Position numbers and translations under genes: made by a program | Shown: one piece after another, positions 58,441-64,000 of the stretch | Layout: each line of letters opens with the position of its first letter | How positions within the stretch are numbered: position 1 is the stretch's first letter | The notes under the pieces: model-generated | What the model saw: the letters and a program-made list of their open reading frames with translations, nothing else | Told to the model about the DNA's origin: nothing | Databases searched by the model: none | Assembly (NCBI GenBank): GCA_947177425.1 | Contig: CAMWUN010000018.1 | Coordinates: 1 to 64,000 of the forward strand | Length of the DNA: 64,000 nucleotides | Reading direction: 5' to 3' | Origin: an uncultured bacterium | Lineage (GTDB): Bacteria > Bacillota > Clostridia > Lachnospirales > Lachnospiraceae

Positions 58441-59283
58441 ATGGACTATAAATATAATGTTCTGGAAAATCAAAGTTTCATTGATTTATGTATGTACCAA
58501 TATGGCTACACACAAAACAAGCCTCTCTCCTCCTTTGGCCCACATATCCGGAGCCATTATTTATTTCATTATGTGATTTCTGGCTGTGGCACGCTGCGCG
58601 CCCATGATGCCAAAGGGGTTGACCACACTTACCACATCCGCAGCGGACAGGGCTTTCTGATTGTCCCCGGCCAGGTTACTACTTATATGGCCGATGAACA
58701 GCACCCGTGGGAATACACATGGGTGGAATTCAACGGTATGCACGTTAAAGAAGCCCTGATGACTTCCGGTCTATCTGCCGATAATCCGGTTTACCGCTCC
58801 TCCGATAAATTTTATACCGCCAGGATGAAAGACACTATGCTCTACATGGCAAACCACCCCGACGAAACTATTTTTAACCTGATGTCCCACTTATACATGT
58901 TCCTGGACTGTCTCACACGCTCCTCTGCCAGCCGTGTAGTTCCCTCCAGCAACAGTATGAGCCGGTATTATCTGGAATGGGCCTTTACCTACATAGATCA
59001 GAATTTTCAAAACGACATATCCATTGCTGATATTGCAGCCTCCTGCAAAATCCACCGTAATTACCTGGGCAGGATTTTCCGGGAACAGTTGGGCACCAGC
59101 CCCCAGGAATTCCTGATTACCTACAGAATGAATAAGGCCGTCCAGCTTCTGCGGACGACCAAATTATCCATCAAAGATATCGGAAACGCGGTAGGATACC
59201 CTAACCAACTTCATTTTTCAAGAGCTTTCAAGAATGTATACGGAACGCCTCCCAGCCAGTGGCGTAAAAATCCGCGGCTCTGA
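58441..59283 (+). CDS. AraC family regulator of the alpha-galactoside operon
   Basis: A 280-residue regulator. The N-terminal cupin sensor (about 20-150) includes HYLFHYVISGCGTLRAHDAK and SGQGFLIVPGQVTTYMADEQ. The C-terminal DNA-binding domain has two helix-turn-helix units: DISIADIAASCKIHRNYLGR and KLSIKDIGNAVGYPNQLHFS with RAFKNVYGTPPSQWR. It is divergent from the sugar operon, as MsmR/RafR-type activators are. GAAAGGA precedes the ATG at 58441. Its last 56 bases overlap the 3' end of the convergent rsmH-like gene. Confidence 0.9.
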   Translation: MDYKYNVLENQSFIDLCMYQYGYTQNKPLSSFGPHIRSHYLFHYVISGCGTLRAHDAKGVDHTYHIRSGQGFLIVPGQVTTYMADEQHPWEYTWVEFNGMHVKEALMTSGLSADNPVYRSSDKFYTARMKDTMLYMANHPDETIFNLMSHLYMFLDCLTRSSASRVVPSSNSMSRYYLEWAFTYIDQNFQNDISIADIAASCKIHRNYLGRIFREQLGTSPQEFLITYRMNKAVQLLRTTKLSIKDIGNAVGYPNQLHFSRAFKNVYGTPPSQWRKNPRL

Positions 59284-60331
59284 CTGCCCAACGCAGCTTA
59301 GCGGATTTTGCCCTGCTGTTCCTTGCACATTCTTCCGCAGAAGGCCGGATGACTTCCGCCGCAACATCGCTGTAAATTCCGGCCCTACGCAGTTCCTTAA
59401 AGGATTTTTTCACAAGGCGGTCTTCCCCTGAATGAAACGTCAGAATCGCGATCCTGCCTCCCGGAGCCATAACCGAAGGAAGTTTCTCCAAAAAGGCTTC
59501 CAGCACTTCAAACTCACTGTTTACATCTATCCGCAGGGCCTGGAACACTCTGGCGCAGGACTTTTTCACCGCATCCTTCCGCTCATTTTCCGGCAGAAAG
59601 GACAGGGCGCCGGCAACCACCTCCGCCAGCCTTGTTGTAGTCTCAATCTTTCTGCCTTTCCTGCGTTCACTTATAACTGCCCTTGCAATCTCCTGGGCAT
59701 ACGGCTCATCAGAATTTTCTTTCAACATCCACGTCAGTTCATCCCTGCCCATCTCCCGCAGACGCTCAGCGGCGGAAACTCCTGCGCGGGGATTAAGCCG
59801 CAGGTCAAGAGGACCCTCATTTTTATAAGAAAATCCCCTCTCTGGATTGTCTATCTGCATGGAGGACACACCCAAATCCGCCAGCAGGAATTGAAAAGGT
59901 CCATATTCCTGCGCCACCTCGTCAACATGTAAAAAGTTCCTGTGGAGAACTGTCAGAATATCCTCCCCGTAGCCCAAATCATTCAGCCGGCTCTTAGTTT
60001 TTATAATTTCAATGGGATCCACATCCAGGGCATACAGATGCCCCTGGCCGTCCAGACATTTTAACATCTCACGACTGTGCCCTCCATACCCTAAAGTGGC
60101 GTCCACCCCTTTCATCCCCGGCTGTATCTGCAAAAAGTCAAGAATCTCTTTTACGCAAATTGGAATATGCATCCCTGCAGGCGTACTGCCCTTCTGAATG
60201 ACCTTTTCCACTGTATCTTTGTATTTTTCGGGATTCAATTCCTTATATTTCTCACTATACTTTCTCGGGTGGGTTCCCTTATATCTCACCCGTCTGTGGT
60301 GAGGCTGCTCCCCCTGCGTCTGCTTTTCCAT
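59228..60331 (-). CDS. RsmH-like 16S rRNA methyltransferase paralogue
   Basis: A 367-residue SAM-dependent enzyme of the RsmH (MraW) family, which methylates N4 of C1402. Motifs: KGVDATLGYGGHSREMLKCL, FLLADLGVSSMQIDNPERGF, SYKNEGPLDLRLNP, and the end VIRPSAEECARNSRAKSAKL. It differs from cell-division-cluster RsmH: a basic N-terminal extension of about 50 residues (HRRVRYKGTHPRKYSEKYKE), LDLRLNP where LDMRMD is usual, and no mraZ/ftsL neighbours. So it is probably a second paralogue. GGAGGG precedes the ATG at 60331. Confidence 0.85.
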   Translation of the reverse strand: MEKQTQGEQPHHRRVRYKGTHPRKYSEKYKELNPEKYKDTVEKVIQKGSTPAGMHIPICVKEILDFLQIQPGMKGVDATLGYGGHSREMLKCLDGQGHLYALDVDPIEIIKTKSRLNDLGYGEDILTVLHRNFLHVDEVAQEYGPFQFLLADLGVSSMQIDNPERGFSYKNEGPLDLRLNPRAGVSAAERLREMGRDELTWMLKENSDEPYAQEIARAVISERRKGRKIETTTRLAEVVAGALSFLPENERKDAVKKSCARVFQALRIDVNSEFEVLEAFLEKLPSVMAPGGRIAILTFHSGEDRLVKKSFKELRRAGIYSDVAAEVIRPSAEECARNSRAKSAKLRWAVRAADFYATGWEAFRIHS

Positions 60332-60409
60332 TTTCCCTCCATTGCCAGGCTTCCTGCCTGTTTCGGAGGAAACCCTTTTTGTACCTTTACATCTCACTGT
60401 TTATATCTT

Positions 60410-60635: not shown

Positions 60636-61148
60636 TTAATTCTTTATCTGCCGCCCTTCATGATTCATGTGGTAATTATCTTTGTAAATCAGTTGGGAAA
60701 TGGGCACAAATGTGTATCCCTCATTTTTCAGTGTGGCAATCAGCGTATCCAGCGCCTGCGCTGTATATTTTGCTCCATTATGGCAGAGAATTATACTCCC
60801 GTTTCCAAGATGCTTATGCTGTGTCACTGTTTTGATAATGGCATCCACACCGTAGTCCTTCCAGTCTAATGAGTCAACATCCCACTGGATAGTAAAATAT
60901 CCGCAGTCCTTTGCCGTCTTCACCACTGCGTTATCGTAATCCCCATAAGGCGGCCTGAACAGAAACATATCATATCCTGTCAGTTCCTGTACTTTGGTAT
61001 GTACTTTCATTAACTCTTCCTTCTTCTCTTCATCGGAGAGCTGGCTCATGTTTTTGTGGTTTTCACTGTGGTTGCCAAGATCGTGTCCTGCTGCCAGAAT
61101 TGCCTTCACATCGTCCGGGTAACTCTCCACCCACCCAAATGGGCATAT
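60636..61148 (-). pseudogene. 3' part of a polysaccharide deacetylase gene, split by the prophage-like element
   Basis: The frame reads GWVESYPDDVKAILAAGHDL, then GNHSENHKNMSQLSDEEKKE, FRPPYGDYDNAVVKTAKDCG, IQWDVDSLDWKDYGVDAI and GSIILCHNGAKYTAQALDTL. These are the NodB domain motifs: the HSxxH metal site, RPPYG and the late IxLxH motif. The N-terminal part with the first Asp motif and any signal peptide is missing: upstream of about 61148 a stop appears and the DNA belongs to the inserted element. The 5' part should lie beyond the right edge. Such deacetylases act on peptidoglycan, in spore formers also in the cortex. Confidence 0.85.
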
Positions 61149-62703
61149 CTAAAATATTTTTTCGTTGTTTTTTATTATAATTTATGGATAATCCGTCAGC
61201 ATTCTTTAAAAAATCCAGATATATGTCCAGTCTCTTTTCATAAACCTTAATCTGTTCAATATGAGAACACATTAACGGAACTTCTATTCCTTTTTCAGTT
61301 CCACTTTCAAATAATGCCCTCACGCTATTCAGCCTGTCAAACAACTCATTATCCTCTTCTTTCTTTCCCTGTATCTTAATTTCCTTTTCATTGAGAGTTG
61401 CAAGCTGCTTTGCAATATCACTCATTTTAGATGAGTAGTCTGATTTTGCAATTGTTCCATCTAATAATAAATCCATAAGAGTATCTTTTCTTTTATGTAA
61501 TTTCTTTTTTTGCATTTGGATATCTTCTAAATTTTCTCCGCTATTAGAATTAGCTAATCCTTCATAAATTTTTCTGATGGCATTACTCAATACTTCGTCT
61601 GTCTTTTCTTTCGCAATCAACTGCATTCCTAAGTGCTCAATCAAAGATAATACTTCATCTTCTTTTAGATTCAGCGAAACACACTTCATTCCTGTTTTTT
61701 CCCTTACTTTTCCAGAACGTGCACCCTCACTACAATACCAGTAAACACCCTGCGCTCTTTTATTTCTCCAATACTTAGCGTCACATTCGCCACAAATAAT
61801 TTTAGATGATAAAAGCGTATTTCCTTTATTTATACCAACATTATGTATCCTGTCTATGGTTTTTCTGCTGTTAATCTGCGCATTCGCTCTTTCCCATAAA
61901 TCATCATCAACAATCTGCGGTACAATACCTTCTCTGTAAATCCATTCACTTTCAGGATTCTTGATAATCTTCTTTGCTTCAAAGTCAAAATGCTCTTTAT
62001 TCATGACTGCAACGCCTTTATACAACGGATTCTTCACAATATCACGAATCGTATTTTCTGATAATGTCTTACCATTCCGATTTCTAATACCTTCATCCCT
62101 TAACATTCTTGCAACCACACGCCCGCCAAAACCATCAGCAAACATCTTGTAAATACGCATTACAAGTTTCGCTTCTTCTTCGTCAATCAGAATTTCGCCA
62201 TTAACATTTTTGAACCCCCATGTACGATTTGTAATAATTGGCCTGCCTTTTTCCTGTCTTCTTCTTTTAGCGGCATTACCCTTCTTACTCAAATCACGGC
62301 TATACTCTTCTGCCATCATTGCTTTAATACCAAATATGAACTTATCTTTTGAATCAAAAAATGTATTTTCTAAATACAAGTATAGTTTTTTTTGATTCTG
62401 CACAATCTCATTAAGAAAAATATACCAGTCCATTGTGTTGCGCTGTAAACGTGACTGATCCTTAACTACGATAATATCAAATTTATTTTTCCTGATATCA
62501 TCAAGCATTCTCATGTATTCATTTCTTTTCTTGGTTTGTGTCCCCGTGATTCCTTTATCTATATATTCATCAACCAGAATCCATCCTTTGGTGCTGATAA
62601 CATCCCGGTTTTCTTCGATCTGTTTTTCGATTGCGTTTAACTGTTCTTCTTCCTCTGTGCTTACTCTTGCATAGAATACGGCTCTTAATTTCTTCTCTTC
62701 CAT
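61063..62703 (-). CDS. Large serine recombinase of the inserted element
   Basis: A 546-residue site-specific recombinase. The resolvase domain (about 5-150) has AVFYARVSTEEEEQLNAIEK with the catalytic Ser and DIIVVKDQSRLQRNTMDWYI. The recombinase domain covers about 165-275. A zinc ribbon follows (CGECDAKYWRN ... WYCSEG ... MKC, about 300-345), then a coiled coil (about 385-460). The last residues, about 23 (GGELPGRCEGNSGSRTRSWQ), are encoded by host DNA in another frame than the deacetylase, because the frame crosses the attachment site near 61130-61145. It would catalyse integration and, with a directionality factor, excision. Confidence 0.93.
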   Translation of the reverse strand: MEEKKLRAVFYARVSTEEEEQLNAIEKQIEENRDVISTKGWILVDEYIDKGITGTQTKKRNEYMRMLDDIRKNKFDIIVVKDQSRLQRNTMDWYIFLNEIVQNQKKLYLYLENTFFDSKDKFIFGIKAMMAEEYSRDLSKKGNAAKRRRQEKGRPIITNRTWGFKNVNGEILIDEEEAKLVMRIYKMFADGFGGRVVARMLRDEGIRNRNGKTLSENTIRDIVKNPLYKGVAVMNKEHFDFEAKKIIKNPESEWIYREGIVPQIVDDDLWERANAQINSRKTIDRIHNVGINKGNTLLSSKIICGECDAKYWRNKRAQGVYWYCSEGARSGKVREKTGMKCVSLNLKEDEVLSLIEHLGMQLIAKEKTDEVLSNAIRKIYEGLANSNSGENLEDIQMQKKKLHKRKDTLMDLLLDGTIAKSDYSSKMSDIAKQLATLNEKEIKIQGKKEEDNELFDRLNSVRALFESGTEKGIEVPLMCSHIEQIKVYEKRLDIYLDFLKNADGLSINYNKKQRKNILDMPIWVGGELPGRCEGNSGSRTRSWQPQ

Positions 62704-62716
62704 CTATCCGCACCTC

Positions 62717-62956
62717 TTAGTAATATTTGTATAAAACTGACTGATATTCTTCCTCTGTAATTATATCATGTCCCCTCATAATATCCAATAAATACTTAAT
62801 GGCAACAATTTCATCTTCCTGTGTAATATTTGATAGTTCTTCTTTCACACACGGTTCCCCATTTAAAGAAGAATTACTACTAATATATTCAGATAAATAT
62901 GATTTATCAATCATAAAAGAAAAATATTGATTATAATTTTGTGTTTTAATCGGCAT
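62717..62956 (-). CDS. Small SHOCT-like protein before the recombinase
   Basis: A 79-residue protein. Its end (EIVAIKYLLDIMRGHDIITE followed by EEYQSVLYKYY) has the pattern of the SHOCT domain, often found beside mobile-element recombinases. It lies 13 bp upstream of the recombinase gene in one operon. A role as recombination directionality factor is possible but not shown by the sequence. Confidence 0.65.
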   Translation of the reverse strand: MPIKTQNYNQYFSFMIDKSYLSEYISSNSSLNGEPCVKEELSNITQEDEIVAIKYLLDIMRGHDIITEEEYQSVLYKYY

Positions 62957-62994
62957 AACTGTATTGATAATATCAGTTCCTTTCGCATTAAAGT

Positions 62995-63033
62995 TTATTT
63001 AAAAAGGTACTGCCATAACCACAACAGTACCTT
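62995..63033 (-). terminator. Intrinsic terminator upstream of the recombinase operon
   Basis: Minus strand: AAGGTACTG, 12-base loop, CAGTACCTT, then TTTAAAT. It ends the phage-structural transcript before the SHOCT-like gene. Confidence 0.75.
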
Positions 63034-63178
63034 ACATCATATCTCTATATTCAATTTTCCCATAATTTATTATCCATTCAATATAAGGAACCTGATTCTC
63101 CATACGCTGCAAATCTGGTTCACATCGGCTTTGTTTATAGTTACATGTTTTATTTAAACGGCTAAAATCACGCTGGTT

Positions 63179-63352
63179 TCATTTTTTCATTATTTCTATC
63201 TTGCGGTAATATTTCAATACTTCTTCCAGTCCATAGGCCGGGGTATCATTTACATCAGCAAAAGGCTTCACATATACCACGCTGCCCAGCACACAAAGTA
63301 CAGCGAATATTATTTCGCCATCTTTTATTAAATCATTTTTATTTAACTGCAT
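63179..63352 (-). CDS. Small phage protein of 57 residues, frame continues past the stop
   Basis: MQLNKNDLIKDGEIIFAVLC, VLGSVVYVKPFADVNDTPAY, GLEEVLKYYRKIEIMKK, then TGA. After the TGA the same frame stays open for 44 codons (NQRDFSRLNKTCNYKQSRCE and VPYIEWIINYGKIEYRDMM). So the original gene may have been about 102 codons with an in-frame stop mutation. Unknown family; typical of short genes after tail genes. Confidence 0.5.
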   Translation of the reverse strand: MQLNKNDLIKDGEIIFAVLCVLGSVVYVKPFADVNDTPAYGLEEVLKYYRKIEIMKK

Positions 63353-63418
63353 TTTTTTTCACCACTTTTTAACCGCACCCATATTCCAGAGTGCGGTTCT
63401 TACTTCATATTTATTCAA

Positions 63419-64000
63419 TTAATATATTCCATATTTCAGAGTCATGTTTGCATCTTTCCAGCTTTTCTTAATAGCATCCTGCGCTACTGTTTTCATGTCA
63501 TTCAAAAAGTGTTTTGTGTCATTCACATCGCCATTAATTGTAACAAGACTGTCATAATGTACGTTCACATTATTATTCATTGCATTTGCTTTTGCTATTT
63601 CAGGATGTTTTGCCAGAGAACCAAGATTCCATAAAGATTGGTCTAAAGCCCCCGGGTTGATTGCTTCAATAGCTGTATGCTGTATTGGCAGGTCACTATT
63701 GTTTTTTATAAGCCCGGGTTTCCCTTCTTTTCCCCAGCTAAAAACAATATCTCCGTTTTCATCCAGACCTCCACCAACGCTTTCTGCTAATTTTATAAGG
63801 GCTTCTGTCTGTTTTTTGGTAAGGACACCTTCACCTTCCTTTGCTGCTATCAGGGTATCCTCACCTACAGCTTCTGCCATGGAATTTAACGGATTGTTTT
63901 TATCTTTTGTGACAATGCCGCCTTTTGCCATGCGCTTGACTTCATACATCCTGCCAGTGTTTTTCCGCTGTTTTTCTTCTGCAGCTTCCTTACTCAGCCC
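63419..64000 (-). CDS. Phage tail tape-measure protein, C-terminal end
   Basis: 193 codons, open to the right edge of the window. MAKGGIVTKDKNNPLNSMAE and EDTLIAAKEGEGVLTKKQTE are typical of the last part of tape-measure proteins, and the helical tail NMKTVA-like region (DTKHFLNDMKTVAQDAIKKS) fits. It shows the element is phage-derived. The minus-strand frame continues upstream as GLSKEAAEEKQRKNTGR, so the gene is larger than seen here. A hairpin AACCGCAC / GGTGCGGTT lies right after the stop. Confidence 0.75.
   Translation of the reverse strand, partial: GLSKEAAEEKQRKNTGRMYEVKRMAKGGIVTKDKNNPLNSMAEAVGEDTLIAAKEGEGVLTKKQTEALIKLAESVGGGLDENGDIVFSWGKEGKPGLIKNNSDLPIQHTAIEAINPGALDQSLWNLGSLAKHPEIAKANAMNNNVNVHYDSLVTINGDVNDTKHFLNDMKTVAQDAIKKSWKDANMTLKYGIY

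Follow-up and report, generated by a model that had tools for sequence, protein, structure and literature searches.

A PdaB-like deacetylase gene of Lachnospiraceae split at six sites by serine recombinase elements: candidate skin-type intervening elements

The split gene and its two pieces

The window analysed here, the first 64,000 bases of a 64,137-bp contig (C18; CAMWUN010000018.1) from an uncultured bacterium of the Lachnospiraceae, ends in a phage-like element that interrupts a NodB-type polysaccharide deacetylase gene and carries, at the junction, a gene for a large serine recombinase (LSR). The features at this junction are the following:

60636..61130, minus strand: 3' part of the PdaB-like NodB-type deacetylase gene, its last 164 residues (residues 119-282 of the homologue L057), without a start of its own
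61063..62703, minus strand: LSR, a 546-residue frame running through the junction, with Resolvase, Recombinase and Zn-ribbon domains (Pfam) and a match to the integrase family phrog_95
61128..61136, minus strand: 9-bp core GGGTGGGTG of site B, common to the junction sequences of the window and of the 5' part on contig C128
61137..61150, minus strand: element-side attachment arm with the repeat TATGCC, matched by a GGCATA arm on L010 and similar to an arm in relatives

The initial annotation had described the 3' half of a deacetylase fused to an LSR gene whose frame continues into host DNA, and both descriptions hold, since the LSR lies at the junction and its frame (61063-62703) crosses it. 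The 5' part, a short shared core and unbroken homologues, which the same annotation had proposed to look for, all exist. The missing 5' part is located on contig C128 (4,859 bp) of the same genome (L010 1423-1797, minus strand), where it adjoins phage-like genes in the first kilobase that encode an HU-type protein, a weak virion-protein match (E 8e-4) and a small cold-shock-like protein (L010 105-1068). Both pieces pass the Pfam gathering cut-off (23.1 bits) for the NodB/CE4 polysaccharide deacetylase family PF01522, the 5' part matching positions 3-44 with 40.2 bits and the 3' part positions 43-121 with 75.5 bits. With the nearest uninterrupted homologue found, L057 (282 residues), the 5' part shares 85% identity and the 3' part 95%. 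Since the end of C18 falls inside the element, the element runs off the contig, and its full size lies beyond it; C18 and C128 are separate contigs that are taken as the ends of one element by sequence match, with the intervening DNA unassembled.

On the plus strand the core reads CACCCACCC, at window positions 61128-61136 and at L010 1432-1440, and it keeps one codon register in both gene pieces. Past the core, both sides enter the arms of an imperfect inverted repeat (TATGCC / GGCATA), and such arms are usual at LSR attachment sites. Because the LSR frame crosses the core (window 61063-61136), its C-terminal residues are host-encoded in the integrated state and would be different in the circle; the true C-terminus of the protein is uncertain, and this may not matter, as lengths vary among relatives. 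On its other side the split gene is adjoined by an RsmH-type methyltransferase gene (59228-60397; TIGR00006, 236 bits, over the cut-off).

Six insertion sites in one gene

The initial annotation had described one element, and the gene turns out to be the landing place of several LSR lineages at six sites (numbered by L057):

Site A, about residue 93: FDAAWGNED
Site B, residue 118: GGWV
Site C, about residue 132: AGHDLGNH
Site F, about residue 180: RPPYGDY
Site D, about residue 204: DVDSLDW
Site E, residue 238: ILCHNGAKY

Sites A, F, D and E presumably lie inside NodB motifs 1, 3, 4 and 5, respectively, and site C just before motif 2. Of the 37 genomes of the window's genus, 21 have a split gene and 14 an intact one, and two are assigned to neither class (G037, with the second paralogue only, and G041, with none). 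The split genomes are distributed as follows:

Site A alone: G019, G020, G022 (5' side only seen), G024, G030, G044, G045, G048, G051
Site B alone: G000
Site C alone: G021, G039, G050
Site D alone: G032, G034, G036
Site E alone: G029, G052
Two sites: A and B in G026 (also handled as G003), B and C in G038 (also handled as G005), A and D in G040

In a family sample of 150 genomes, one per genus, 62 have a homologue of at least 43% identity, which is split in nine (G000, G161, G111, G083, G070, G178, G080, G136 and G159; the contig of G111 holds the 3' side only). Ten genomes in all carry two elements in one gene, and G015 is a likely eleventh:

Sites A and B: G026, G017
Sites B and C: G038, L012
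Sites A and D: G040, G080
Sites B and D: G001, G004 (D-type recombinase confirmed, last gene piece not sought)
Sites A and F: G136, G159

When the two sides of each insertion are read against each other, all 11 A pairs and 11 of the 13 B pairs have 4 to about 10 contiguous bases in common at the expected register, the B pairs of G014 and G002 being alignment-shifted and left out of the junction reading. Four C pairs have 5-6 bases in common, two E pairs 3 and 9, and four D pairs only 3-5 with mismatches between; other genera contributed six A, two D and two F pairs, among them several whose core spans 4-5 bases. Shared runs of 3-4 bases are weak evidence alone, and the argument rests on the codon position, which is constant, and on the arms. 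An assembly or binning artefact that joined unrelated pieces would fit the fragmentation of several assemblies and the separate contigs of the window's own gene pieces, but many separate assemblies agree in their junction codons, have similar arms and carry recombinases of the matching type, and both ends of several elements lie on one contig, which makes such an artefact highly improbable.

Displaced extra 3' ends that start at site D were seen downstream of an intact gene, two in G155 and one in G078 (L170 4795-5085 and 11279-11605 in G155; L171 2018-2254), with a third of G155 on contig L174; perhaps these are replacement 3' ends brought by elements, or scars of earlier insertions.

Recombinases linked to their sites

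A species-genome scan with the window LSR returned 21 loci, 19 close relatives (67-98% identity) and two distant ones (36-37%). All 19 close relatives adjoin this gene at one common position, 18 of them through its 3' part and L028 through its 5' part, the LSR of L028 being oriented opposite to the other 18. In a search of 60 related genomes, 36 of them of the same genus, the window LSR was present (E up to 1e-150) in three of the 36, and these are precisely the three with a site-B split. Where a single locus contains both ends, the element measures 2.35 kb (L017), 3.25 kb (L020, L025), 3.4 kb (L029) and 5.7 kb (L016), and all 20 site-B LSRs are full length (521-546 residues), including those in elements of 2.35 to 3.4 kb.

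Resolvase and Recombinase domains were detected in representatives of all sites, while a zinc ribbon was not found in the site-D representative. A tree of 47 recombinases falls largely into site-linked clades, namely the sisters A1 and A2 (43-48% mutual identity), B (61-98% within the clade), D (46-93%), E, three tandem C recombinases and a single F, and the identity between recombinases of different sites is 15-37%. Two exceptions are a recombinase near the C site of G021, which clusters with a recombinase of G015, and the one at the F junction of G159, which is closest to A2; no recombinase was found at the A site of the latter genome. The F type is represented by G136 and by the second paralogue of G022, of which a single side was seen. 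A recombinase may lie as close to its junction as tens of bases or as far away as about 2.4 kb. Site-A elements carry theirs in either orientation, and the site-C element of G039 holds three serine recombinase genes in tandem (L151 2549-7637).

Other genes of the window element

Upstream of the recombinase the window element contains:

62717..62956, minus strand: 79-residue open reading frame (ORF) immediately preceding the recombinase gene, which may encode a recombination directionality factor
62882..62910, minus strand: sigma-A-like promoter motif TTGATA-N17-TATATT inside this ORF, ahead of the recombinase, read from the window's row of the alignment
63419..64000, minus strand: end of a phage-type protein, probably a tail tape measure protein, continuing past the window and resembling the end of L012 3674-5089

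The 79-residue ORF is found in 19 of 19 close relatives, displaced and inverted in two of them (L020, L030), and was not found at 15 loci of other sites; since, in addition, little else is present in the 2.35-kb element of L017, it is a candidate for the directionality factor. It has no Pfam or PHROGs match, and no relative of it was found in viral contigs. A sigma-A-like motif precedes the LSR in 10 of the 21 loci.

That phage genes follow the recombinase, as initially annotated, agrees with phage-type DNA at this position, for which the relative L012 provides support: its 471-residue protein matches the tail tape measure family phrog_4211 (E 4.5e-8), and window positions 63419-64000 were likened by eye to the end of this protein, while the window piece alone gave no significant PHROGs match. 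No free phage of the window LSR lineage was found: relatives in IMG/VR reach only 35% identity, and every one of 488 phage records is less than 60% identical to the recombinase.

Gene family, promoter and sporulation

The best NCBIfam family of the gene is the sporulation deacetylase PdaB (TIGR02764), against which the window's 3' part scores 164.9 bits; as this family scores best and its cut-off is not reached, the gene is referred to as PdaB-like. Of 35 genus genomes examined, 24 have the pattern ATA-N16-18-CATA within 110 bases ahead of the gene (on average 1.2 after shuffling, at most 4) and 28 have CATA[ACT]ACT there (on average 0.35 after shuffling, at most 3), counts that are not independent of one another because of shared ancestry. 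G019 and G043 have neither motif, and the window's own gene carries ATA-N17-CATAAACT on L010. According to excerpts of a study of C. difficile (PMC3789822), three polysaccharide deacetylases of that species are under sigma-E control and the canonical -10 box of the mother-cell sigma factors starts with CATA. The host, a gut bacterium, probably uses this gene for spores. The initial proposal that a deacetylase suits sporulation control agrees with the closest family and with the mother-cell-type promoter motif, although the PdaB cut-off is not reached.

Of the 37 genus genomes, 34 have an unbroken sigK-like frame and 35 an unbroken sigE-like one, the remainder being without such a full match; no match passes the sigK cut-off, so that the assignment to K or E is by rank, and G044 has one additional partial sigK-like match. 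The more distant deacetylases of the genus genomes are mostly continuous as well. Hence, among the genes looked at, splitting is concentrated in the PdaB-like gene. A second, nearer paralogue was found unbroken in 12 genomes and cut in G022, where the break in this gene (about 74% identical) lies at about residue 180 beside another serine recombinase (L156 737-2665). G027 (C19:65106-68004) has the gene twice in tandem: about 2 kb away from the intact copy there is another, which contains one stop codon.

The pieces of the split gene are conserved. No stop is found over residues 45-92 in 19 of 19 split genomes examined, nor over residues 134-280 in 14 of 14. The median ratio of nonsynonymous to synonymous substitution rates (dN/dS) of the 3' part, a rough measure because synonymous sites are near saturation, is 0.025 for intact pairs, 0.026 for mixed pairs and 0.027 for split pairs. 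Among the site-B LSRs, 58 pairs have a usable synonymous distance; their median is 0.061 where a small element is involved and 0.054 elsewhere, and the closest pair (the window and L012) gives 0.43 with few differences.

Excision in the mother cell and its alternatives

The occurrence of several unrelated elements at exact spots in one gene suggests, as far as sequence can tell, that the gene may be cut free and rejoined during spore formation. We estimate at roughly 60% the probability that the window element, at site B, belongs to a group of skin-type intervening elements which land in one PdaB-like sporulation gene and are removed in the mother cell. The skin-type interpretation of the initial annotation is partly supported. 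According to this model, the LSR would insert a circular element by recombination of attP with a short attB within the gene, leaving the gene split in vegetative cells and in spores. During sporulation the recombinase, together with a directionality factor for which the 79-residue ORF is the candidate, would precisely remove the element in the mother cell and rejoin the gene, and the forespore genome would retain the element.

Several observations weigh against this interpretation. Three intact homologues score 218-223 bits, under the TIGR02764 cut-off of 237.4, and an intact second paralogue is kept in 5 of 21 split genomes. No CATA-type promoter was found within 300 bases ahead of the LSR in the 21 loci with the one pattern tried. 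The inverted pieces or LSR of G024 and G016 are not explained by simple excision, as the gene pieces of G024 face opposite ways (L088 2513-5401) and it is the 5' part that borders on the recombinase end in G016 (L028 6740-7051). The pattern of the joined attachment site had no match in IMG/VR, a resource that is uninformative for an event confined to a cell stage. LSR and host distances are uncorrelated, with Mantel r of 0.06 (17 genomes) and -0.09 (15) and, for site A, of 0.01 (8) and -0.07 (10), none of them significant, and LSR synonymous divergence is clearly under that of the host in 6 of 11 pairs. These two findings do not support a long vertical residence of the elements and indicate that they move horizontally; many insertions may be recent, in which case the conserved halves of the gene are weaker evidence. 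Our confidence was also slightly lowered by the short D and E cores, and it is excision itself, its timing and cell, the directionality factor and selection on the rejoined protein that we infer.

Ordinary lysogeny or transposition, in which phages and small elements have their attB in a conserved but dispensable gene, insertion inactivates that gene and excision occurs only on induction or transfer, without developmental control, would account for the horizontal movement, for the missing mother-cell promoter ahead of the LSR and for the second paralogue kept in some split genomes, and excerpts of PMC10083194 describe distant LSRs that converge on one gene elsewhere without a link to sporulation. 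Against this explanation, none of the pieces examined is decayed (14/14 and 19/19 are free of stops); 16 of 21 split genomes are without an intact second paralogue, which led us to reject this paralogue as a general backup; the target carries a mother-cell-type promoter motif; and a full-length LSR is kept by elements that have shrunk to a few kilobases. We regard simple lysogeny as unlikely, while giving it some weight. Excision could also be real and non-developmental, as a reversible switch in a mixed population of the kind known from active lysogeny. The vegetative-type promoter motif of the LSR in 10 of 21 loci speaks for this, as does yin of yabG, whose excised and integrated forms are present together at all time points (PMC10747680); yet with a mother-cell-type promoter motif on the target, vegetative switching would presumably have little effect on its product, and a switch of this kind appears improbable.

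Removal in the mother cell would also offer a reason for the crowding of sites. We put forward tentatively, at slightly less than even odds, that the gene is a multi-lock rearrangement hub in Lachnospiraceae, in which several recombinase lineages independently use the codons of conserved motifs as attB. Being required in no cell but the doomed mother cell, such a gene would be a safe harbour for mobile DNA, and in genomes with two elements each recombinase would have to remove its own element before the protein could be made.

Comparison with known intervening elements

Searches confined to open-licence PMC papers brought up no earlier case of a split PdaB- or NodB-type deacetylase gene. Intervening elements of sporulation genes described in the available sections of three papers include skin in sigK, SP-beta in spsM, vfbin in spoVFB, vrin in spoVR, gin in gerE and yin in yabG (PMC4191935, PMC5595907, PMC10747680). 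A gene invaded so often and at so many places would make the question of why spore formers tolerate split genes directly testable, and it may be asked whether expression confined to the mother cell makes a safe harbour that shapes recombinase specificity; the set is, in addition, a source of natural recombinases for which both occupied and empty sites are at hand.

As judged from the same sections, skin of B. subtilis and C. difficile resembles the elements described here in being a serine recombinase element with a short core in a mother-cell sporulation gene (PMC4191935, PMC5595907, PMC10747680), while here another gene is the target, the sigK-like genes are unbroken, several sites are used per gene and the elements are known from sequence alone. 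SP-beta, vfbin, vrin and yin are likewise prophages or prophage-like elements in sporulation genes, for which precise joining is reported; each has one site per gene, whereas six sites, with up to two elements per gene, are used here. The gin element in gerE of B. cereus (PMC5595907) and the site-C element of G039 both have three serine recombinase genes, but gin is 28.6 kb long with one site, whereas the G039 element is about 6.9 kb with its three recombinases in tandem. Convergence of distantly related LSRs on one target gene, as seen here, is described in excerpts of PMC10083194 for a prolyl isomerase gene with a single conserved site, whereas the lineages in the PdaB-like gene use different motifs and can share one copy. 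Thus the known elements of sporulation genes appear, in the sources at hand, as single cases with one site per gene, while here more than half of the genomes of a genus are affected, in six places of one gene and by unrelated recombinases.

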